Source: Solidesulfovibrio magneticus RS-1
GTDB lineage: Bacteria; Desulfobacterota; Desulfovibrionia; Desulfovibrionales; Desulfovibrionaceae
Reading direction: 5' to 3'
Assembly (NCBI RefSeq): GCF_000010665.1
Contig: NC_012796.1
Location: 1,736,001-1,800,000, forward strand
Length of the DNA stretch: 64,000 nt
A program made the position numbers and the translations under genes. Positions 1,479 through 60,020 of the stretch are shown one piece after another; position 1 is the first letter of the stretch; every line of letters starts with the position of its first letter. Below the pieces are notes generated by a model. That model saw only the letters and a list, made by a program, of their open reading frames with translations, was not told where the DNA came from and did not search any database.

Positions 1479-4400
1479 TTAGCGTTGCAGTTCCGTCACC
1501 TTGTCGGCCTTGCGCAGATTGCACAGGCAGGCCTTGTACTCGGGGATGCGGGTGTTGGGGTCGGCCACGGAAACCGTCAGACGGTTGGTAGCGTCGCCGC
1601 AGCCCGGGGTGGTCCAGCCGAAGCAGAACGGCATCCCGATCAGGTGAAGGGTTTTGCCCTGCACAAAAAGCGGCGTCATGCGCACCGTGACCATGGCCAC
1701 GGCCTCGACCTTGCCCCGCAGGGTCTCAATGATGATGACATCACCATTTTTGACGCCTTTTTCCTTGGCCAGCTCCTGGCTGATCTCCACATAGAGCTGG
1801 GGTTCGGCTTCGAGCAGGGCCGGGGTGTTGCGGGTGTCGCCGCCGCCGCACCAGTGTTCGGTGAGGCTGTAGGTGGTGAGCACGATGGGGAAGCGCGGAT
1901 CGCCGTTTTTGGCTAGGGCGTCGATGTCGCTTTCCGCCACCTTCATGCAGGGGTTGCTCATCTGCTTGGAGAAGGGGTTGACGGTAATGGGCGTTTCCGC
2001 CGGTTCGTAGTGTTCGGGCAGAGGACCGTCCACGCGGCCGGGGCCGAAGAGCTGGCCATGGCCCTCGGTGTGCATGATAAACGGATACACGCCCTTGGGA
2101 TCGGCCATGGGGGGCGCCGGTCCGTCAGGCACGTCGCCGATCCATTTGCCCTCTTCCCAGGCGATGACGGTCTTGGCCGGATTAAAGGGCTTGCCGTTCA
2201 CGTCCACCGAGGCGCGGTTGTAGATGATGCGCCGGTTGACGGGCCAGGCCCAGGAGTAGTTCGGGAACAGGCCGATCTTGGCCTGCATCGGCGTTTGGGT
2301 GTGGTCGCGGCGCTTGGTCAGGTTGCCGCCCGGGCCGTAGCTGCCGGCGTAGACCCAGCACAGGCTGGTGGTGGAGCCGTCGGCGGCCAGCATGGCAAAG
2401 GCCGGCACCTGGTCGCCCTTCTTGTACTGCTTGTCGCCGATGGTGACGTCGCGGGTGAACTGGCCGTTGATCTTCTTGGCCATGAAGTCCGCGTCGTACT
2501 GCTCGTACCAGTCGGCGTTGAGGATGGGGGCCGGGAAGGCGCCGCCGTCCTTTTTGTAGAGCGCTTTGACCCGCTTCATGATCTCGACGATCATCCAGCC
2601 CATGGGCTTGCTGTCGCCGGCCGGCTCGTAGCCCTTGTAGTGCCACATGTGCCAGCGGCCGGAGTTGGAGGTGGTGCCGTCCTTTTCGCCGCGCTGGCAC
2701 GACGGCAGCATGAACACCTCGGTCTTGACGTTTTTGGGGTCGTAACCGGGCTGACGCCAGAAGGCGCAGGTTTCAGTCTCGTGGGCCTCGCCGATGACCA
2801 GCCAATCAAGGTTACTCAGCGCTTTTCTGATCTTGTGGGTGTTGGGCATGGACATGGCCGGGTTGTGGCCGTAGATGAACCCGCCCTTGATCTTGCCCTT
2901 GTACATCTTGTCGAACATGAACAAGCTGGCGTACTCGACGTTGGGCTCGATTTTCGGCAGCCAGCCATAGCCGAACTCGTTTTCCGGGGTGGCCGCGTCG
3001 CCGAACCAGCCCCTCAGCAGGCTGGTGACGTACTTGGGCCGGTTCTGCCACCAGTTGACGCTTTTGGGGTCCTTGGACACCGGCGTATTGGCCTTGAGGT
3101 AGTCGGCCAGGGTCGGCCAGGCCGTGGTCGGCACCGGGTGGTAGCCGGGAAGCGCGTCATAGAGCAGGGCATGGTCGGTGGAGCCCTGGACGTTGGGTTC
3201 GCCGCGCATGGCGTTGACGCCGCCGCCGGCCATGCCCACGTTGCCGAGAAGCAGTTGGAGGATGCCGGCGCAGCGGATGTTCTGCACGCCCACCGAATGC
3301 TGGGTCCAGCCCAGGGCGTACATCATGGTGGCGACCTTGTTGGGCTTGCCCGTGGAGGCCACCGCGTCCCAGACCTTGAGCAGGTTTTCCTTGGACACGC
3401 CGGTGATGCCGGAAACCGTGTCGATGCCGTAGCGGGAATAGTGCTTCTTCATCATCTGGAAGACGCAACGCGGATGCTGCAGCGTCTTGTCTTTGACCGG
3501 AATGCCGCTGGCGTCCTTGTCAAAGGTCCAGGTCTTGCGATCGTAGGTCTTGGTGGCCGGATCGAAGCCCGAGAACAGGCCGTCGTTGAAGGCGTAGCCT
3601 TCGGAGATGATGAAGGAAGCGTTGGTGTAGTCGACGACGTAGTCCTTGAAGTACAGGTCCTTGTCCATGATGTACTTCATGAGGCCGCCGAGGAAGGCGA
3701 TGTCCGTGCCGGAACGAAGGGGCACGTGGAAATCGCAGCGAGCCGAGGTGCGGGAGAACTTCGGGTCCACGTGAATGACCGTGGCTCCGGCGTCCTTGGC
3801 CGCAAGCACCCACTTAAACGAGATGGGGTGGTGTTCTGCCGCGTTACTGCCCATGATGAGCACCACGTCGGCGTTCTTGATGTCAATCCAGTGCTGGGTC
3901 ATCGCGCCGCGTCCGAACGACTCTGCCAGAGCCGGTACAGTGGGCGAGTGTCAGACCCTGGCCTGGTGGTCCATGTGGACGAAACCCAGGCTGCGAAGCA
4001 TCTGATGCGTGACGGCGCACTCCTCGTTATCCATCTGGGAGGTGCCGAGGTGGAACATGGACTCGACCCGGTTGACGGTCTGGCCCTTGTCGTTTTTCTC
4101 GATAAAGTCGCGGTCGCGGGTTTCCTTGACGCGCCTGGCGATGCGGTCCAGGACAAAGTCCCAGTCCTTTTCTTCCCACTTGTCGCTGCCCGGGGCCCGG
4201 TATTTGGGCTTGAGGATCCGGTGATGGCTGACGTGCATGGAATGGAAGGCCGCGCCCTTGGGGCAAAGGGCTCCTTCGCTGACCGGATAATCCGGGTCGC
4301 CTTCGGAGCTTAAGAACTTCCCGTCCTTGACGAACATCAAAATGCTGCACCCGCACGAACAAAACGGGCAGGTGGACTGGTATTCCTTGGCCCCTTCGAT

Positions 4401-4517
4401 GCGCAGCGTCGTGGCGTAGGCCGCTGCCGGACGGGGGTCCAGGCCCAGGTCTTTCAGACCCAGGCAGGCCAGACCGGCCCCCGTCAGTTTCATGAATCCG
4501 CGTCGCGATATGCCCAT
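1479..4517 (-). CDS. fdhA: formate dehydrogenase alpha subunit, selenocysteine-containing, Tat-exported
   Basis: This is the catalytic W/Mo-bis-MGD subunit of periplasmic formate dehydrogenase, which oxidises formate to CO2. The reading frame is continuous except for one TGA at 3951-3953, codon 189. It sits in the context ARV-TGA-HSPTV...GRGAMTQHW, the signature around the active-site selenocysteine of FdhA; read through, the protein is 1012 residues, normal for the family. The N-terminus carries a twin-arginine signal (SRRGFMKL), followed by the CPFCSCGC...CPKGA cysteines that bind a 4Fe-4S cluster. The ATG at 4517 has AAGGAGG eight bases upstream, and this start gives the Tat motif directly. 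The C-terminal molybdopterin dinucleotide-binding region (TYSLTEHWCGG) is intact. An annotation that ends at the TGA would split the gene in two, with a false start near 3902. Confidence 0.95.
3917..3953 (-). promoter_or_regulatory. UGA selenocysteine codon with candidate bacterial SECIS hairpin
   Basis: The UGA is at 3951-3953. Downstream in the coding strand, at 3940-3923, the sequence CTGTACCGGCTCTGGCAG can fold as CTG/CAG and CC/GG stems with a bulged T and a GGCTCT loop. Bacterial SECIS elements lie about ten bases after the UGA and carry a bulged U and a small G/U-containing loop that SelB recognises. The fold was drawn by eye. Confidence 0.6.
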
Positions 4518-5102
4518 ACGGCCTCCTTGAAAGGTTCCCCAGCAATCAGGCGGCGAAACCGCCCGGCATCCCACGTGTTATGTCTAATCAGGCACACGAT
4601 TGTCATAAAAAGCAGGCTACCGCCGGTCAAACCAATCCCGATTGCGCAAGATCTGGCACAAGCAGTCACTGTTTCATTTGGAAAACTGATGCGATAGGGC
4701 CGCAAGTGTCTGGAATTTTGAATTAAGTTATTTTAAATACAAAGAAAAAAGTTGGCGGCCGCCGCCCGGCCGGGCACGGTCGAAAACAGTTGCCGCCGGC
4801 CGGGCCGGGGCCACGACGCGCCGGGTCGCGCCTTGACGCCGCCGAGGGTTCTTGGCACGCCTGTGCTGGGCGCGCCTCCTGTTGCCGGCGCGCCCAGCCA
4901 AACGATGCCGGCCAGCCAAGGCCGGTCGGCGGACGCCGGACCGGTCCTTATGGGGTAATCGGCGTCGGCCCGGTCGTTGCCCGTCTGGCCGGCCAACCGA
5001 CCGGCCCGGGCTGCGCAATCTTGCCGGGCGATCCGCATCGGCCCACGGCCGCGCCTGGCGCGGCCGCCACGACCCAACGCCGGGCCGCTCCGGGGAGGCG
5101 TC
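4518..5102. other. divergent intergenic region fdhA / fdhE
   Basis: No gene was recognised in these 585 bases. The fdhA-proximal half (4560-4750) is the A+T-rich part, with a stretch near 4715-4750 (GAATTAAGTTATTTTAAATA) likely to hold the divergent promoters. From 4755 to 5100 it is very G+C-rich with repeated GGCCGGC-type words. Long open frames here are antisense or composition artefacts without ribosome-binding sites. Confidence 0.5.
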
Positions 5103-51446: not shown

Positions 51447-51462
<16 letters not shown>

Positions 51463-52964
51463 CCCCGTTCCCCTTCATACGGAAAGACCATGGTGAAGGT
51501 CGTGCCCCTTGTTTCGGGGGACATGACCGTGATCCAGCCGCCGTGCTCCTCAACGATGCGGCGCACGATGGCCAGCCCCAGGCCCGAGCCTTCGCCCTTG
51601 GTGGTGAAAAAGGGCTGGAAGACGCGGTCAATAAGCGGCGGCGGGATGCCCGGGCCGTCGTCGGACACCCGCAGGGCCACCACCCGGCCGTAGGGTTCGA
51701 TGACGCCGGTTTCCTCGCGGATGACGATGGAGCCGCCCTCGACCATGGCTTCGCAGGCGTTGAGCACGAGGTTGACCAGAGCTTCCTTGAGCTGGTCCGG
51801 GTCGGCGCTGATTTCCGGCAGCCGGCGCGAACGCTCCACGGTCACCGACACGTCGTAGGACTCCAGGCGATGGCGCAGCAGGGTCAGCGTCGTATCGACC
51901 ACCGCCGACAGGCTCACGGGCTGGGCCACGAGCTTGGGCGGCCGGGCGAATTCCAGGAAATTGCGCACGATGGTGTCGATGTGGCCGATCTCCTCGGCGA
52001 TGACCTCGAAGTCCTCCTGCTGGGAAGCGTCGAGCTTGAGTCCGCGCTCCAGGGAAAACAGGCGCATTTTGACCGAGGTGAGGGGATTGCGGATGGTATG
52101 GGCCACGCCGGCGGCCAGTTTGCCGGCCATGGCCAGCTTTTCCGATTGCATCAAATGGTCGCGGCTTTGCTCCAGATCCAGATGGGCCTGGTCCACGTCC
52201 TTTTCCAGGTCGCGGAACTTCTGGCCGATGGCCTTGACCTCGTCGGACAGGCCGGCGGCCACGTCCTTGCCGGCCTCGCCCCAGGCCAGGCGGCGGATGG
52301 GGTCGAGGATCTGGCCGACCAGGACGTAGGCCAAAAAAAAGCCCAGGCTGGCGTTTAAAACTACGCCCATGACGGCCACGCCCATGACCAGATCGGTGCG
52401 CTCCAGATAGACTTGGCTCGTGTGGCGCATGCGCTCGCGGTAGTAGGCCTTGTAGCGGTCGCAGCGTTCGCGCAGGCCGTCGAAGTCCTCGCGCAGGCCC
52501 CAATGCTGTTTCTTGGCGTCGTCGGCCCGGTCCTGCCGGTACAGGGCGATGACGCCGTCCTTGGCGTCGGCGTAGCGCCGGTAGGCCAGGGCGATGTCCT
52601 CGACCAGGGCGCTGGCTTCGGGGTTGGTCCGGTCCTCGCCGATGCGGTCCAGCCAGAGTTCGAAGGCGCGCCGGCTCTCGTCGAGCTTGGCCAGCCAGGC
52701 CGGGTCCTGGCTCAGGTAATAATAGGTGGCGTAGCCTTTTTGGTTGAGCAGGGCGTTTTCCAGCTCGTGGGCGGCGGTCAGGGCCGCCAGATCCTTGTCG
52801 GCCGTGGTGGTGTAGAGGTCCCGGGCCATGGAGGCATAGAGGATCATGATGACCGGCCCGACCATGTTGACCAGAAGCAGGCCGCCCAGGAGCAGGTAGA
52901 CCCGGGCGCGCAGCCCGAGCTTGGCGGTCAGGGATTTGCGGGATTTGGCGGAGGCGTTTGGCAT
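51447..52964 (-). CDS. NtrB-like membrane sensor histidine kinase
   Basis: The 505-residue kinase has a membrane helix near the N-terminus (VYLLLGGLLLVNMVGPVIMILYA, residues about 22-44), an extracytoplasmic helical sensor of about 145 residues, a second helix (LVMGVAVMGVVLNASLGFFLAYV, about residues 195-218), and a coiled coil. The HisKA segment carries the phospho-acceptor in AAGVAHTIRNPLTSVKM; the HATPase has VLNACEAM, SDDGPGIP and GSGLGLAIV. It should phosphorylate the overlapping NtrC-type regulator. The sensor has no recognised family; helical bundles like this are common in four-helix-bundle receptors. The start at 52964 has a weak ribosome-binding site. Confidence 0.93.
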
Positions 52965-53308
52965 GGCTGGCGGGGAAGGCCCTTGGTTGCGCAGGGTTGC
53001 CCGTCGGCGGCGGTCGCGGACGGGAGCGGACGCCGACAGTCCTAGCGCGGCCAGGGCCGGCTGGCAATGACCGGGCCGGAGCCGGGCGGGCGGCCTCGGG
53101 ACGCGACAACGCTTCGGTCCGGGATGTCGGGGCGGAGCAGGCCGGGACGGGGCAGGGCGGCCTAGGACCGGGGGGACGCAAAAACGCCCCGGCCTGGAGG
53201 GCCGGGGCGGAGGGAGCAAAAGGGCTGTCGCCACGGTCACGGCGGCACGAATCCGGTCTGTCGGGGCGCGCCTCATGCCGGGGCGCGTCTGCCGACAACC
53301 GTCGTCGT
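52965..53308. other. intergenic region between MCP and histidine kinase genes
   Basis: No gene is seen in these 344 bases. They contain the MCP terminator (53178-53211) and G+C-rich sequence upstream of the histidine kinase. The promoter of the kinase/NtrC pair should be here, but no clear sigma-70 or sigma-54 element was found. Confidence 0.4.
53178..53211 (-). terminator. rho-independent terminator of the chemoreceptor gene
   Basis: On the minus strand CGCCCCGGCC pairs with GGCCGGGGCG around CTCCA and is followed by TTTTT, 98 bases after the chemoreceptor stop. Confidence 0.82.
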
Positions 53309-55366
53309 TCAGGAAGGCAGGGCCTTCTTGCCGGACCGTGCGCCGGGCAGGGCTTTCACGCCGGAGCGCGCCTCGGGCAGGGCGGCTGGCCCGCCGCAGG
53401 CGTCGCCGCCCAGGGTCACGATGAGCCGGCCCAGCTCCTCGGCCATGGCGGCCAGGGCATGGGCGGCCCGGCTGGTGGCCTCGACCCCGGCCACGTTGTC
53501 CTCGGCCACGCCGCTGATTTCGGTGATGGCCCGGCTGATCTGCTCCGAGGCGGCGGACTGTTCCTCGGCCGAGGCGGCGATGGACTGGACCGCGCCGCTG
53601 GTGGCGTCGGCGTTGCCGACAATGGCCAGAATGGCCTGGCCGGAACGGCCGGCCAGGGCGTTGGCCTCGGTGACGGCGGCAACGGCCTCATCCATGCCGC
53701 GGATGTTGCGGCCGGCGGCCTCCTGGATAGCCCGGATGCGCGATTCCACTTCCTTGGTGGCCACCATGGTCTTTTCGGCCAGCTTGCGTACCTCGTCGGC
53801 CACCACGGCAAAGCCGCGCCCGGCATCGCCGGCCCGGGCCGCCTCGATGGCGGCATTGAGCGCCAAGAGGTTGGTCTGGTCGGCGATGTCGTTGATGACG
53901 CCGACCACCTCGCCGATGGATTGGGCTTCCTGGCCGAGATGGCCCATGTCGCCCTTGAGCGCCACGGCGATGCCGTTGACGGCGGTCATGGACTCGCCGG
54001 CTTGCTTGACCACCTCGGCCCCGGCCACAGCGTTGTCGCGGGTGGTTTCGGCGTTTTTGGCGGCTTGGCCGGCATTGGCGGCGATTTCAAGGATGGTGGA
54101 ATTCATCTGCGTGACGGCCGAGGCGGTCTCGTCCACCCGGCGGCGCTGGAGTTCGACGCCGGCCGCCGACTGTTCGGTCTGGCTGGAGAGTTCCTGGGCC
54201 GCGCCGGAAAGCCGGCGCGAGATGTCGGCGGCCTGTTCGGCCACGGTCTTCATGCAGGATAAGGTCTTGGCCAGTTCCTCTTCCTTGCGCATGGCCTCGC
54301 GCATGGCCTCCTCGGCGGCCTGGGCGCTGCGTGCGGCCTCGGCCTGCTTCTCCTCGACTTGGCGCATCTGGACTTTCAGGTTGTCCACCATGGCCGTGGT
54401 GTCGTCGCGCAGGGCGGCGAATTCGGCCTCGAAGCGGCCGGCGGGCTTGGCCTCCAGGTCGCCCGAGGCCACCTTGCGGGAGTAGGCTCCCAGGGCGGCC
54501 AGGGAATTGGAGATGCCGCGCACGATCCATAGGATGACCAGCAGCACGACCACGGCCAGGCCGACTTCCACGGCGACCTGGGCCCGGTCAACGATGTCGT
54601 CGGTTTCGTGGCGCTTGTCGGCGTAATGCTTTTCGATCTTCTCGAAGGGCGGCATGAGCTTGCGGCCGCTTTCCACCATGGCCGCCGTCACCTGCTTGGC
54701 CTTGGCCGAAGCATCGACATAAGCCATGAAGCTGCGCTGGTAGGCGTCGATGACGGCGTCAAAGCCCTTTTTCTGGGCGGCAGAGAGGTCTTCGGCGGCG
54801 GCGACCATAGCGTGGAGCTTTTTCACGCCGTCCTGGACCTTGACGACGTAGGAGGTCTCGTCACGCAGCTGCCAGTTTTTTTCGTGGCGGCGGATGGTGA
54901 GCAGCAGGATCTGGAAATCCTTGTCGGCGATGGGGGCGAATTTGTCGTCGAGGTCCCGGGCGGCGTAGACGAAATCCCGCATGATGCCTTCATGCTCGGT
55001 GAAGCCCTTGGCTTTTTCGATGGCGGCCAGCTCGTCAAAGCTTTTTCCGTAGGCGGTCAGCTCGGCCAGGGCTTGCCCGGCCTCGCCGGCCAGGGTGTTG
55101 TCGCGGCGCAGGATGTCCTCGACATTGGCCCGCACCTTGCCGATGTGCTGGCTGACGGCGCTTACGGTGGACGGGTCGTGGCGCAGCAGGAAATTTTTCT
55201 CCTCCCGGCGAACTTGCAGCACTTCCACGTAGGCGTTGGCCGCCAGCTCTTCCAGGTTCTGGTAACGCTCGGTGTAATGGCTACCGACCTGATCCGCCGC
55301 GAACAGGCAGGCAAACCCCAGGACGCATACGCCTAGCAGCAGGTACAACTTGCTCCGCACTCCCAT
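53309..55366 (-). CDS. methyl-accepting chemotaxis protein
   Basis: The 685-residue receptor has an N-terminal helix ([20 protein letters not shown]), a periplasmic helical-bundle sensor of about 245 residues, a second helix ([22 protein letters not shown], about residue 268), HAMP, and the long signalling coiled coil. Its hairpin tip reads [23 protein letters not shown], the universal CheA/CheW contact. The ligand is unknown. The C-terminus ends in an imperfect repeat ([10 protein letters not shown] / [10 protein letters not shown] / ALPS). ATG at 55366 is used, with GGAG six bases upstream; a GTG four codons earlier lacks a site. It lies 3 kb from the stator genes. Confidence 0.95.
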
Positions 55367-55564
55367 CGCATCCTCCACGGTTAGGCAAACCCGCCGTCGT
55401 CATCGCGGCGACATGTCGTGCTTTCTATACTACAAAAGGCTGAAAGTCATGAAATATCAACCATGCAAGGCCGGGGCCAAGGATTGATTCGGCGTAAATG
55501 TCACGAATCGCGGTCCGGGACATGTCGAATCATCAGGAGGAGGCGCGCCGTGGGGTGTGGCAGG

Positions 55565-56817: not shown

Positions 56818-57843
56818 CTAGGGACTGACCAGGATGACGACGCGGCGGTTTCTGGCCTGGTTTTCCGGGATGGACCGGCCGGCCGGATCGGTGTTGGGGG
56901 CCACGGGCTGGGTGTCGGCCAGGCCTTCCACGCGCAGGTGGTCGCGGGCCACGCCGTGGTCGATGAGGAACCGGGCCACCCGGCTGGCCCGGGCCGAGGA
57001 CAGCTCCCAGTTGCTGGGGTAGAGCCAGGATTCCATGGGTAGGTTGTCGGTGTGGCCTTCGACGGTCACTTTGTAGGGTGTGCCAGCCAGGGTGGCGGCG
57101 ATGTCGCGCAAAAGCGGAATGCCGCCGGGTTTGACCTCGGCGCTGGCCAGATCGAAAAAGGCCGCGCCGCGAAGGTTGAGTTCCACGCCGTTGTCCCGGG
57201 GCCGCACTTCCACGGCTCCGGCCGTGACGTCGAGCTTGCCGGAGAGTTCCTTGCGGATGTCGTCGAGGCTTTTGCGGGTCGGGCCGGTGCGTTCCTCGCC
57301 GGGTTTGGGAGCTTTTTCGGCCGTGGCGTCGGCCGTGGCGTCGGCCTTGGCCGGTTCGGTCCCCTTGGGCTGTTCGCCGGGTTTGGCCGCCTCGGGCGTC
57401 TTGGCCGGCTCTCCGGGCTTGGTCGGTTCAGCCGCCTTGGCCGGCTCTTGCGGCTGGCCGGGGTGGGGCTCGCCGAGTTTCGAGGCGTCGGCCGCCTGGG
57501 GCCCCTGGGCCGGCTGCTCATAGAGCGGCGCGGGTTCCCGGGACAGGGTCGTGTGGCTGACCTTGGAGCGCACTTGCGGCTTTTCAAAGGGCAGGGGCGG
57601 TGGGGCGGTTTTGTCCGTCACCGGCGCGGTCTCGGCTGTTTTTTTCTTGGGCGCGGGCTTTTCCTGGACCATGGCCTGCTGCATGGAGTCGGCCACGCGC
57701 TCGTAGCGGTTGAGGTCCACGTGGGACACGGCCACGATGAGCAGGAAAAAGCACAACAGCAGCGTCATCATGTCGGCCAGGGAGATGGGCCAAAGGTCCT
57801 CGTCCTCGTGACGGCGCTTGCGCAGATCGGACAGCTTGAACAT
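56818..57843 (-). CDS. motB: flagellar motor stator protein MotB
   Basis: The 341-residue protein has a charged cytoplasmic N-terminus, a single membrane helix with the proton/cation-binding Asp at its start (SLADMMTLLLCFFLLIVAVS, Asp about residue 24), a long Pro/Lys/Glu-rich periplasmic linker, and a C-terminal OmpA-like peptidoglycan-binding domain (VTVEGHTDNLPM, SSARASRVARFLIDHG, NQARNRRVVILV). With MotA it forms the torque-generating stator. The linker (about residues 60-190) is long and low in complexity. It starts six bases after motA. The ATG at 57843 has a weak site, consistent with translation coupled to motA. Confidence 0.94.
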   Translation of the reverse strand: MFKLSDLRKRRHEDEDLWPISLADMMTLLLCFFLLIVAVSHVDLNRYERVADSMQQAMVQEKPAPKKKTAETAPVTDKTAPPPLPFEKPQVRSKVSHTTLSREPAPLYEQPAQGPQAADASKLGEPHPGQPQEPAKAAEPTKPGEPAKTPEAAKPGEQPKGTEPAKADATADATAEKAPKPGEERTGPTRKSLDDIRKELSGKLDVTAGAVEVRPRDNGVELNLRGAAFFDLASAEVKPGGIPLLRDIAATLAGTPYKVTVEGHTDNLPMESWLYPSNWELSSARASRVARFLIDHGVARDHLRVEGLADTQPVAPNTDPAGRSIPENQARNRRVVILVSP

Positions 57844-57849
57844 GGCGGC

Positions 57850-58653
57850 CTAGGCGTCCTGGCCGAAGCCTTCGCCGGCTTCGGCGCGGTCGATGGAGGC
57901 CCAGCGGCGCGGCGGCAGATAGGCCTTGAGCTTGTCCAGCACGATGGCGGCCGGGGTCTTGTCCTTGATAAACAGCGTGCCGTCGCGAATGACGCACATG
58001 AGGATCACGCGCTCCTCGATGCGCTTTTCCACCTTGATGGCGATGGGCAGGAAAATGAGGTTGGACAGCAGGATGCCGTACAGGGTGGTGGTCAGGGCCA
58101 CGGCCATGTGGGCGCCGAGGTTGCCCAGGCCCACGCTCATGGACTGCATCATGCCGATAAGGCCGATAAGCGTGCCGATGATGCCGTAGGCCGGGGCCAG
58201 CTTGGCCATGGTGCGGTAGATGCCGGCTGAGGACAGCTCCTGCTGGTAGGTCTGCTCGATGCGGGTGTCGAGGATTTCCTTGATCTCTTCGCGGGAATAG
58301 CCGTCCACGAGCATTTGCACGGCGTTTTGCAGGAATTCGTTTTCGATGCCGGGCAGGGCCTGTTCCAGATGGATCTTGCCCCGGCTGGAGGCCTCCCGGG
58401 CGATGGAGACGATGGCCTCGATGTAGTGGTCGGTGGGCAGTTCCTCGCGCTTGAGCGCCGTGAGAAACGTGCTCGACACCCGCATCACTTCCTTGAGCGG
58501 AAAGCAGATGAAGGTGGAGGCGAGCGTGCCGCCAAGGACGATGGCCAGGCCTGGAAAATTGACAAACACTCCGGCGCTGTCCGTGGACAGGTAGGTGGCA
58601 AATCCCAGGATGGCGACGCCGAAGACGATGCCGATGACGGTGGCGATGTTCAC
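57850..58653 (-). CDS. motA: flagellar motor stator protein MotA
   Basis: The 267-residue protein has four hydrophobic segments (AILGFATYL; FPGLAIVLGGTLASTFICFPL; the pair LAPAYGIIGTLIGLIGMMQ and MAVALTTTLYGILLSNLIFLPI) and a cytoplasmic loop rich in charged residues (KREELPTDHYIEAIVSIAREASSRG), where MotA meets the rotor protein FliG. GTG at 58653 is the start; AAGGGACTC precedes it. It overlaps the stop of the upstream cNMP/FliG-like gene by four bases (GTGA), which ties the synthesis of the three proteins together. PomA-like PF01618 motifs are clear. Confidence 0.93.
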   Translation of the reverse strand: MNIATVIGIVFGVAILGFATYLSTDSAGVFVNFPGLAIVLGGTLASTFICFPLKEVMRVSSTFLTALKREELPTDHYIEAIVSIAREASSRGKIHLEQALPGIENEFLQNAVQMLVDGYSREEIKEILDTRIEQTYQQELSSAGIYRTMAKLAPAYGIIGTLIGLIGMMQSMSVGLGNLGAHMAVALTTTLYGILLSNLIFLPIAIKVEKRIEERVILMCVIRDGTLFIKDKTPAAIVLDKLKAYLPPRRWASIDRAEAGEGFGQDA

Positions 58654-59852
58654 GAGGCGAGTCCCTTGGCGGCCTTGATGCGGTCGAGCAGTTCTTGTTC
58701 CACGGCGGCGGCCTCGCCCTCGTCGAGGGCGGCCATGGCGGCGGCTTCCTCGCGCACGATGCCGGCAATTTTTTTGGAGAGCGTCTTGTAGATCTTGTCC
58801 CGGGCGGCTTCTCCGGCCATGGCCGCCAGCACCGCCACCTTGTGAAAGCCCATGGTCGAGAGAATTTCTTCCAGGGTCGCGGCGTCCACGGCCACGATGT
58901 CGTCCACGCTTTCGAGGTCGGCGGCGGTCAGGCGCGGTCGGCGGGCCTGCTTGAAATACTCCTGGCCCATGGACTCGATGAATTCCCGGGCGGCGGATTT
59001 GTGGAAGAAAAAGAGCTTTTCGGGAATCTCGCCGTAGCCGATCTTTTTGAGGATCACCTCGGGCGTGCCGCCGGCTTCCCGGGAAAAATCGGCCAGATCG
59101 CAAAATTCCAGATCCACGCCCACGGCCTTGGCGTTGGCGTCGTCGCGGGAGAGATTCTTCGCCACGGCCAGAAATTTCTCGGGATCGGGCAGGCGCAGAC
59201 GGCGGTCCTTGATGAAGCTCGGCCCGGGTTTGGTCTTGCCCAGGAGGTTCGTGCGCGGGAAATGGCCTTTGACCTCGGTGACTGACACGAGGTGCAGTTT
59301 TTTGAGGCGCTCGAAAATGGCGTCGATCTCGATCTGGCTGAGAAGGATGATGTCCTTGATGGTCCGGGACACCTCGGCGTAGTCGAGTTCGGCTTTGTCC
59401 CCGCGTCCGGCCGCCTGCCAGGCCAGGTGGACGATGCGGCACACGGCCAGAAACGGGTCGCCCGACGGCCGGTCCGTGACCTGGGCGGCCAGGGCCTGGA
59501 CGCGCTCGGCCAGATAGCCGGCCAGCAGTTGCACCGGACGGGGGCTTTTGAGCAGCATGGTCTGGATGAGACGTTTGTCGCAGGCCAGGGCCTCGACGTA
59601 TTCCACGGCCTCGGCCGTGCTGGCTCGCGGCTCGGCCGTGACCACGCCCATCTCGCCAAACATCTCGCCCGGGCCGCGTTCGCCCAGGCGCACGCGCTTG
59701 TTGCCGACCACGCGGTAGATGGAGACGCGGCCTTTTTTAACGACATAGGCCACGTCGCTGGCCTGTCCCTCGCGGAAGATGACGGTTCCCTTGGGGAAGG
59801 TGCGGACGGCCGAGTCGGCCTCGTCCTCGAAGCGGTCGATATCCTGGGGCAT
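58650..59852 (-). CDS. cyclic-nucleotide-binding protein with a FliG C-terminal-like domain
   Basis: The 400-residue protein has a cNMP-binding (CRP/PKA-type) domain at residues about 15-125 (FPKGTVIFREGQASDVAYVVKKGRV, LGERGPGEMFGEMGVVTAEPR) and a helical/winged-helix-like middle (DYAEVSRTIKDIILLSQIEIDAIFERLKKLHLV). Its last 90 residues align by eye with the FliG C-terminal domain: DAATLEEILSTMG, RDKIYKTLSKKIAGIVREEA, then EGEAAAVEQELLDRIK, matching FliG RSIQRLL, REKFLRNMSQRAADILRDDL and the following helix. The FliG torque charges are partly kept (R-E-E for R-D-D). It is translationally coupled to motA. The probable role is to link a second messenger to the stator or rotor. The start at 59852 has GAGGACGT. 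Confidence 0.78.
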   Translation of the reverse strand: MPQDIDRFEDEADSAVRTFPKGTVIFREGQASDVAYVVKKGRVSIYRVVGNKRVRLGERGPGEMFGEMGVVTAEPRASTAEAVEYVEALACDKRLIQTMLLKSPRPVQLLAGYLAERVQALAAQVTDRPSGDPFLAVCRIVHLAWQAAGRGDKAELDYAEVSRTIKDIILLSQIEIDAIFERLKKLHLVSVTEVKGHFPRTNLLGKTKPGPSFIKDRRLRLPDPEKFLAVAKNLSRDDANAKAVGVDLEFCDLADFSREAGGTPEVILKKIGYGEIPEKLFFFHKSAAREFIESMGQEYFKQARRPRLTAADLESVDDIVAVDAATLEEILSTMGFHKVAVLAAMAGEAARDKIYKTLSKKIAGIVREEAAAMAALDEGEAAAVEQELLDRIKAAKGLAS

Positions 59853-60020
59853 ACGTCCTCGCGTTGGCGGCCTCGGGCCGGTTGCGGACACACTACGGCC
59901 AAGGCCGGCCGAGTTCAAGGACGGCGGCCCGGCTGCGGTCAAGTTTGCCCGCCATGGCCCGTTTTACATCAAACGCCAAAGGCGGTATAGGACCGCCACA
60001 TTGTTCACGCGAGGTGCTGT

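Follow-up and report, generated by a model that had tools for sequence, protein, structure and literature searches.

The window analysed here, a 64,000-nucleotide stretch of Solidesulfovibrio magneticus RS-1 (contig NC_012796.1, positions 1,736,001 to 1,800,000, in a genome of 5,315,620 bases and three contigs), encodes on its minus strand a 400-residue protein (58650..59852; an uninterrupted open reading frame (ORF) with an ATG start and a TGA stop) in which a cyclic-nucleotide-monophosphate-binding (cNMP) domain is fused to a genuine copy of the C-terminal domain of the flagellar rotor protein FliG (FliG-C). The gene overlaps that of a MotA stator subunit, and the fusion is very tightly linked to this one type of MotA across the family Desulfovibrionaceae. 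It is a conserved bacterial protein that is apparently undescribed: a search of the open-licence literature, which is no proof of absence, showed no account of a cNMP-FliG-C protein among the titles and abstract openings listed. We propose, with close to an even chance of being right, that it is a dedicated cyclic-nucleotide-gated regulator, which would confront the auxiliary stator encoded with it with a surface resembling FliG, in the manner of a decoy or a clutch.

Domain architecture of the fusion protein

The protein consists of four stretches: the cNMP domain, a winged helix of CRP-like type, another helix-turn-helix (HTH)-like region that is assigned with less certainty, and FliG-C. An earlier note on this DNA had recognized the two ends by eye, and both are borne out by profile searches. 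The cNMP domain (residues 17-100; 59553..59804) is detected by the Pfam cNMP_binding model (PF00027) with an E-value of 5.6e-20, and FliG-C (residues 315-394; 58671..58910), within the last 90 residues, by FliG_C (PF01706) with an E-value of 1.2e-6, its 29.1 bits exceeding the cut-off of 23.3. In the PDB, phmmer likewise matched FliG at residues 316-393 (E 3.3e-5). At a threshold of E<=1, both domains are found in all 57 sequences, the RS-1 protein included, of an alignment of the fusion (A1), with a best FliG_C E-value of 4.8e-12, and in all 15 members of a second alignment (A2) made of tandem paralogues discussed below. When the tail was searched against the PDB as a profile of fusion residues 222-400 (A3), 11 of the 13 matches at E<=10 were FliG (E 1.9e-11 to 8.5e-4), the remaining two being unrelated proteins with E-values of 0.18 and 0.62. 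Between the two ends lies a CRP-type winged-helix-like region (HTH1; residues ~130-205; 59238..59465), seen in the structural model, in fold matches and in the sequence profile; it is followed by a helical region (residues ~222-305; 58938..59189), which matches HTH_17 only weakly (3/57 members of A1, best E 0.017) and occupies the place of the second HTH (HTH2) of the Bdellovibrio protein Bd2879.

The other parts of FliG are missing. Pfam returns no match to FliG_M at E<=1 in the RS-1 fusion, and this family is also absent among the best 25 of the 51 Pfam families matched for A1. FliG_N stays sub-threshold in the RS-1 protein, scoring 11.8 bits (E 0.39) where 25 are required, and the match falls over the FliG-C helices at 335-398; it is matched in 20/57 members of A1, at best with an E-value of 8.2e-4. 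The fusion is thus ruled out as a second complete FliG, FliG_N and FliG_M being missing and an ordinary FliG being present in the genome. A relation to PilZ was likewise rejected, as Pfam does not match that domain in the RS-1 fusion at E<=1.

The full-length protein was modelled with AlphaFold, giving a mean predicted local distance difference test score (pLDDT) of 81.8 and a predicted template-modelling score (pTM) of 0.38, for which reason the relative placement of its domains is unreliable. Its top PDB match in Foldseek is Bd2879 (9sfa; E 1.3e-11 over 303 columns); Bd1971, an EAL enzyme, comes next, and then CRPs. The whole-chain superposition with Bd2879 is poor (template-modelling (TM) score 0.27-0.32, root-mean-square deviation (rmsd) 22 Å), and hence only local parts agree; Bd2879 is also matched by the sequence profile over the cNMP domain and HTH1 (positions 8-194, E 9.1e-14). 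The cNMP domain superimposes on that of Bd1971 (6hq3_B) with a TM-score of 0.92 at 33% identity. The CRP- and Bd2879-like middle goes beyond what the earlier note had described.

The tail was modelled separately because cNMP proteins fill the best 50 fold matches of the whole model, which are therefore uninformative for it. In the tail-only model (pLDDT 87.8, pTM 0.55) the first 19 Foldseek ranks are all FliG. The first of these is 1lkv (E 5.8e-4), the sole match at E<=0.001; 1qc7_B follows the model with a target-normalised TM-score of 0.83 and an rmsd of 1.8 Å over 85 columns (E 0.023), and 8ucs_H, a FliG fragment bound to MotAB, gives a TM-score of 0.78 (E 0.092). The structural comparison called for by the earlier note hence agrees with its assignment of the tail; a chance resemblance to FliG was considered and is ruled out by the profile, the fold and the family-wide matches.

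Linkage to a single type of MotA

On the minus strand the gene order is fusion, motA, motB. The stop codon of the fusion (TGA) overlaps the start of motA (GTG) in the sequence GTGA (58650..58653), and the start of motB (57843) lies 6 bases past the motA stop (57850), so that a direct reading of the sequence upholds the overlap and the spacing described in the earlier note. The neighboring motA (57850..58653) codes for a PomA/MotA-like stator subunit of 267 residues with a MotA_ExbB channel domain (PF01618, E 2.4e-24), and motB (56818..57843) for a 341-residue protein in which Pfam finds a normal MotB plug and OmpA peptidoglycan-binding domain. In the part of PMC9389320 that concerns D. magneticus RS-1, motB is said to precede motA, whereas in the present locus motA is transcribed ahead of motB.

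To trace the distribution of the fusion we searched 348 Desulfovibrionales genomes, of which 288 are Desulfovibrionaceae, and called it present where A3 scored above 120 bits. It was found in 74 genomes, every one of them from the Desulfovibrionaceae; apart from a degraded copy in G204, the other A3 matches listed reach at most 40.6 bits and lie in ORFs of 331-352 residues (one of 448), as expected for true FliG. A search of the 288 family genomes with the RS-1 MotA recovered a close copy in 73 of them (218-568 bits, 59-100% identity), the lowest score belonging to a broken gene split over two frames in G222. The next-best match scores 161 bits at 38% identity, and those listed below it show 33-39%. 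This distinctive MotA occurs in 73/74 genomes with the fusion versus 0/214 Desulfovibrionaceae genomes without it. In 72 loci motA lies directly downstream on the same strand, its start falling at -4 relative to the fusion stop in 53, at -1 in 17, and at +3 and +58 in one each, so that stop and start overlap by 4 or 1 bases in 70/72; in G244 the two genes stand at the ends of different contigs. Co-occurrence and gene order together make the dedication of the fusion to one stator well supported, a tightness of association that the earlier note had not reported.

At least one additional MotA match at E<=1e-30 is present in 69 of the 73 genomes, and RS-1 has six MotA_ExbB matches in total, which may include ExbB-type proteins; hence the fusion-linked stator is one among several. 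FliG_N is found in 239/288 family genomes and in 73/74 with the fusion, the exception, G249, being 82% complete. Besides the fusion, the only FliG_C protein of RS-1 is its ordinary FliG, so that several stators are combined with one FliG. At least two more MotA_ExbB genes with an adjoining MotB-like match can be made out in RS-1 (L116, 5029-6490; L117, ~3681-4907), the one at L117 lying near an apparent secA.

Class III cyclase domains (PF00211) are matched in 69/74 fusion genomes versus 78/214 others, a comparison that ignores relatedness and completeness, and cyclases are found in 31/32 genomes with the fusion and 18/28 without it in a hand-picked set of 60. These counts are lower bounds, since G022 was matched in the 60-genome count and not in the 288-genome count.

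Conserved residues of the nucleotide pocket and the FliG-like face

The nucleotide pocket carries the conserved-residue signature of its family: G66 and E67 are invariant in the 57 members of A1, and R76 is arginine in 53. Residues of the tail were mapped to FliG over an ungapped range of equal length, in which positions 87-174 of the A3 profile fall on residues 228-315 of 8umd_B. The position of FliG 281 is taken by K361 in the fusion (K in 54/57), that of 288 by E368 (acidic in 53/57) and that of 289 by E369 (E in 54/57). On the side of the stator, PMC7564593 describes R90 and E98 of MotA as meeting D289 and R281 of FliG, in the pairs E98-R281 and R90-D289. The glutamate of the first pair corresponds to E97 of the RS-1 MotA, aligned with PomA E96, and is invariant in 71/71 MotA sequences, as are P154, T161, T189, T190 and P203; position 91 is K or R in 66/71. 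The FliG-C part has a ratio of nonsynonymous to synonymous substitution rates (dN/dS) below 1 in six comparisons, and across A1 it shows the strongest conservation among the four stretches measured (mean pairwise identity 0.52 versus 0.49 for the cNMP part).

Relationship to known motor regulators

YcgR, the PilZ-type flagellar brake of Escherichia coli and Salmonella, is an effector of cyclic di-GMP whose gene is not known to stand beside stator genes dedicated to it; MotI of Bacillus subtilis and FlgZ of Pseudomonas aeruginosa are cyclic di-GMP proteins that are not known to contain FliG-C. The fusion resembles YcgR in that the latter, according to PMC10140304 and PMC12713396, binds a second messenger and is proposed to slow motor rotation by acting on both MotA and FliG. 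It differs in having no PilZ match, in combining a CRP-type domain with a copy of FliG-C, and in overlapping its own stator genes. MotI and FlgZ, according to the section of PMC9039648 that treats them, depend on cyclic di-GMP and may uncouple or select particular stators. Given that all three act on stators as second-messenger proteins (PMC12713396, PMC9039648), the fusion would represent the same kind of regulation in a new architecture, probably with a different messenger. With FliG itself it shares the C-terminal torque domain, as judged from the fold, the profile match and part of the charged face; unlike FliG, the RS-1 fusion has no FliG_M and no significant FliG_N, and carries cNMP and HTH-like domains instead.

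The N-terminal part has its closest parallels in Bdellovibrio. Bd2879 shows the same succession of a cNMP domain and HTH1, with a second HTH where the fusion has its middle region; PMC12750041 treats it as a putative transcription factor and delimits a nucleotide-binding domain (1-118), HTH1 (125-228), HTH2 (237-335) and a tail predicted to be disordered with a zinc finger. It thus ends differently from the fusion, and the main text of PMC12750041 mentions neither FliG nor a stator. Bd1971 offers a close solved cNMP domain, with structures for both the cyclic AMP (cAMP) and the cyclic GMP (cGMP) complex; its output, unlike that of the fusion, is a cyclic di-GMP-degrading EAL enzyme rather than FliG-C.

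A proposed mechanism and its alternatives

In the regulator that we propose, the CRP-type N-terminal domain would bind a mononucleotide, cAMP or cGMP, probably as a dimer, and FliG-C would engage the cytoplasmic loop of the MotA encoded next to it via the charged face used by the rotor FliG. The docked fusion would then occupy the stator as a decoy rotor or clutch in competition with FliG, and nucleotide binding, transmitted through the HTH-like linker domains, might either release or impose this block, the nucleotide domain being the likely natural switch. The cell could thereby choose when the fusion-linked stator joins the motor. Since the FliF- and FliM-binding regions of FliG are absent from the fusion, it is unable to convey torque, and its simplest role would be to occupy or present a stator; the clade-specific pairing and the overlapping genes in turn argue that it acts with its MotA. 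A more specific form of the idea is a pseudo-rotor switch, in which a decoy FliG controlled by cAMP or cGMP gates one auxiliary stator, such that a mononucleotide acts directly on torque and picks the stator used; this we consider possible rather than probable.

Several observations weigh against the proposed regulator. Positions 264, 288 and 297 of FliG matter in the face of the torque helix. At the first of these, K264 is not kept, position 344 of the fusion being A or S in 52/57 members of A1, and at the last the charge of R297 is reversed, position 377 being acidic in 52/57; the face of the fusion is hence only partly FliG-like. In the stator, no arginine is found at the position expected for MotA R90, S89 and S90 of the RS-1 protein standing opposite R88 and K89 of PomA. 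Read from the alignments, one of the two cited MotA-FliG pairs thus appears charge-conserved, the MotA side of the other appears shifted, and a further rotor charge appears reversed. In all six orthologue comparisons with RS-1 the FliG-C part has a dN/dS of 0.23-0.47, above the 0.03-0.17 of the cNMP part. One fusion genome, G176, is without the distinctive MotA; its fusion (L065/L139) is divergent and has lost the pocket arginine. No PF00211 match was obtained in five fusion genomes (G003, G222, G230, G247 and G249), and the middle of the protein resembles DNA-binding regulators.

Relatives away from motAB belong on the same side of the balance. A tandem pair of further paralogues of the fusion (377-400 residues where read) occurs in 16 of the 17 genomes of genus g34 at sites away from motAB, and no motA or motB match was found in the tandem-copy loci examined (L054, L056, L058, L060, L062, L064, L067, L071 and L138). 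The 16 tandem copies included in the tree form two clades of eight; the seventeenth genome, G204, has only a degraded copy (57.7 bits, two internal stops). G015 carries a second cNMP-FliG-C copy with a long branch in the tree, about 1.3 kb past motB (L048:6139-7320, minus strand). Beyond the family, a search of 395 genomes of the phylum with A1 recovered at least three full-length relatives (404-416 residues), all from genus g49 of another Desulfobacterota family; this search was swamped by cNMP domains, at about four candidates per genome, and may have missed others. The g49 relatives (L113:3725-4939, L114:4891-6105 and L115:5440-6690) lie beside CheB- or response-regulator-like genes, with a CheA-like gene also at L115, rather than beside motAB, the neighbors being named by reading the sequence. 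These relatives indicate that the architecture is not exclusively stator-linked and has other uses. The association with motAB that the earlier note expected of such fusions accordingly holds in 73 genomes and does not extend to the g34 tandem copies or to g49.

The nearest rival to the proposed regulator reverses its sign: the fusion would be a positive adaptor, which brings its stator to the motor or helps to assemble it there when nucleotide is high, for instance with its FliG-C stacked on the FliG ring or with MotA held engaged. The co-occurrence with one MotA in 73/74 genomes is no less compatible with an assembly partner than with an inhibitor, the gene overlap suggests co-translational assembly, and in the C-ring FliG-C domains do pack against neighboring FliG domains. 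In the absence of FliG_M, and with FliG_N only sub-threshold in the RS-1 fusion, a place for it in the C-ring is not evident, and we regard this reading as unlikely, if the first to turn to.

Next comes a transcription factor of the CRP/Bd2879 type, regulating motAB or other genes, with FliG-C holding it on the stators so that it is titrated by them. The CRP layout of the N-terminal part, the primacy of Bd2879 among the fold matches despite its poor superposition, the profile match to the same protein and a mean net charge of +1.8 over the HTH1 region speak for it, and the CRP/Bd2879-like middle keeps it alive. The predicted recognition helix of HTH1 (173-185) averages a net charge of -1.37 across the 57 members of A1, its sequence being SQxEID as opposed to SRETVGR in CRP; since seven CRP-like controls aligned at this helix span -2 to +2, its acidity counts only weakly against DNA binding. 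None of 11 upstream sequences scanned for exact patterns contained a CRP-type operator of the form TGTGA-N6-TCACA, one weak inverted repeat being visible near the fusion start, and the gene overlaps motA rather than diverging from a target. Overall, a stator-titrated transcription factor strikes us as doubtful, a little more so than the adaptor.

Far less probable is a separate non-flagellar rotary machine, of which the fusion would be the part driven by its MotAB. The distinctive MotA clade does have a FliG-C partner of its own, and further ion-driven 5:2 rotary motors are described beside the flagellar one in the pertinent text of PMC9389320; against this, FliG_N is present in all the fusion genomes save the incomplete G249, and the plug and OmpA domain of MotB are normal. 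Least credible is a reading of the tail as a generic helical repeat that plays no part in the motor. In its favor, MgtE, whose helical fold is related, turns up low in the fold list of the tail (E of 4.4 and above), and the g34 tandem copies lie away from motAB; against it, every PDB sequence match at E<=0.001 and each of the top 19 fold matches is FliG, the torque-helix charges are conserved, and the link to one MotA recurs in 73 genomes. The profile, the fold and this link thus speak against the outcome that the earlier note had named as fatal to its idea, namely a tail without a FliG-C match or a generic repeat unconnected with motAB.

Upstream region and neighboring genes

Upstream of the fusion, the sequence TTGAAC-17-TAGTGT (59890..59918, minus strand), picked out by eye, looks like a housekeeping promoter and is a candidate for that role; both hexamers are identical in 9/11 aligned upstream sequences. 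Three promoter patterns scanned in the same 11 sequences gave no match, the scan having used a -35 element that differs from TTGAAC. A few kilobases past motB on the same strand, inspection by eye suggests a chemoreceptor-like gene (53309-55378) and a sensor histidine-kinase-like gene (51447-53276).

Implications for stator choice

The review PMC9039648 treats as unsettled how bacteria with several stators choose among them, and names Desulfovibrio with three or even four sets. The fusion module is a candidate stator selector, which would couple a built-in sensor to a mimic of the rotor surface and is tied to one stator clade. Because some of its contact charges have changed (R297) and others are kept (R281, D289), such a natural decoy might also serve as a probe of the MotA-FliG interface. 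If the proposal is right, cAMP or cGMP would act in these bacteria on the motor itself, beyond flagellar gene expression, and the torque domain of FliG would have found another use away from the rotor.

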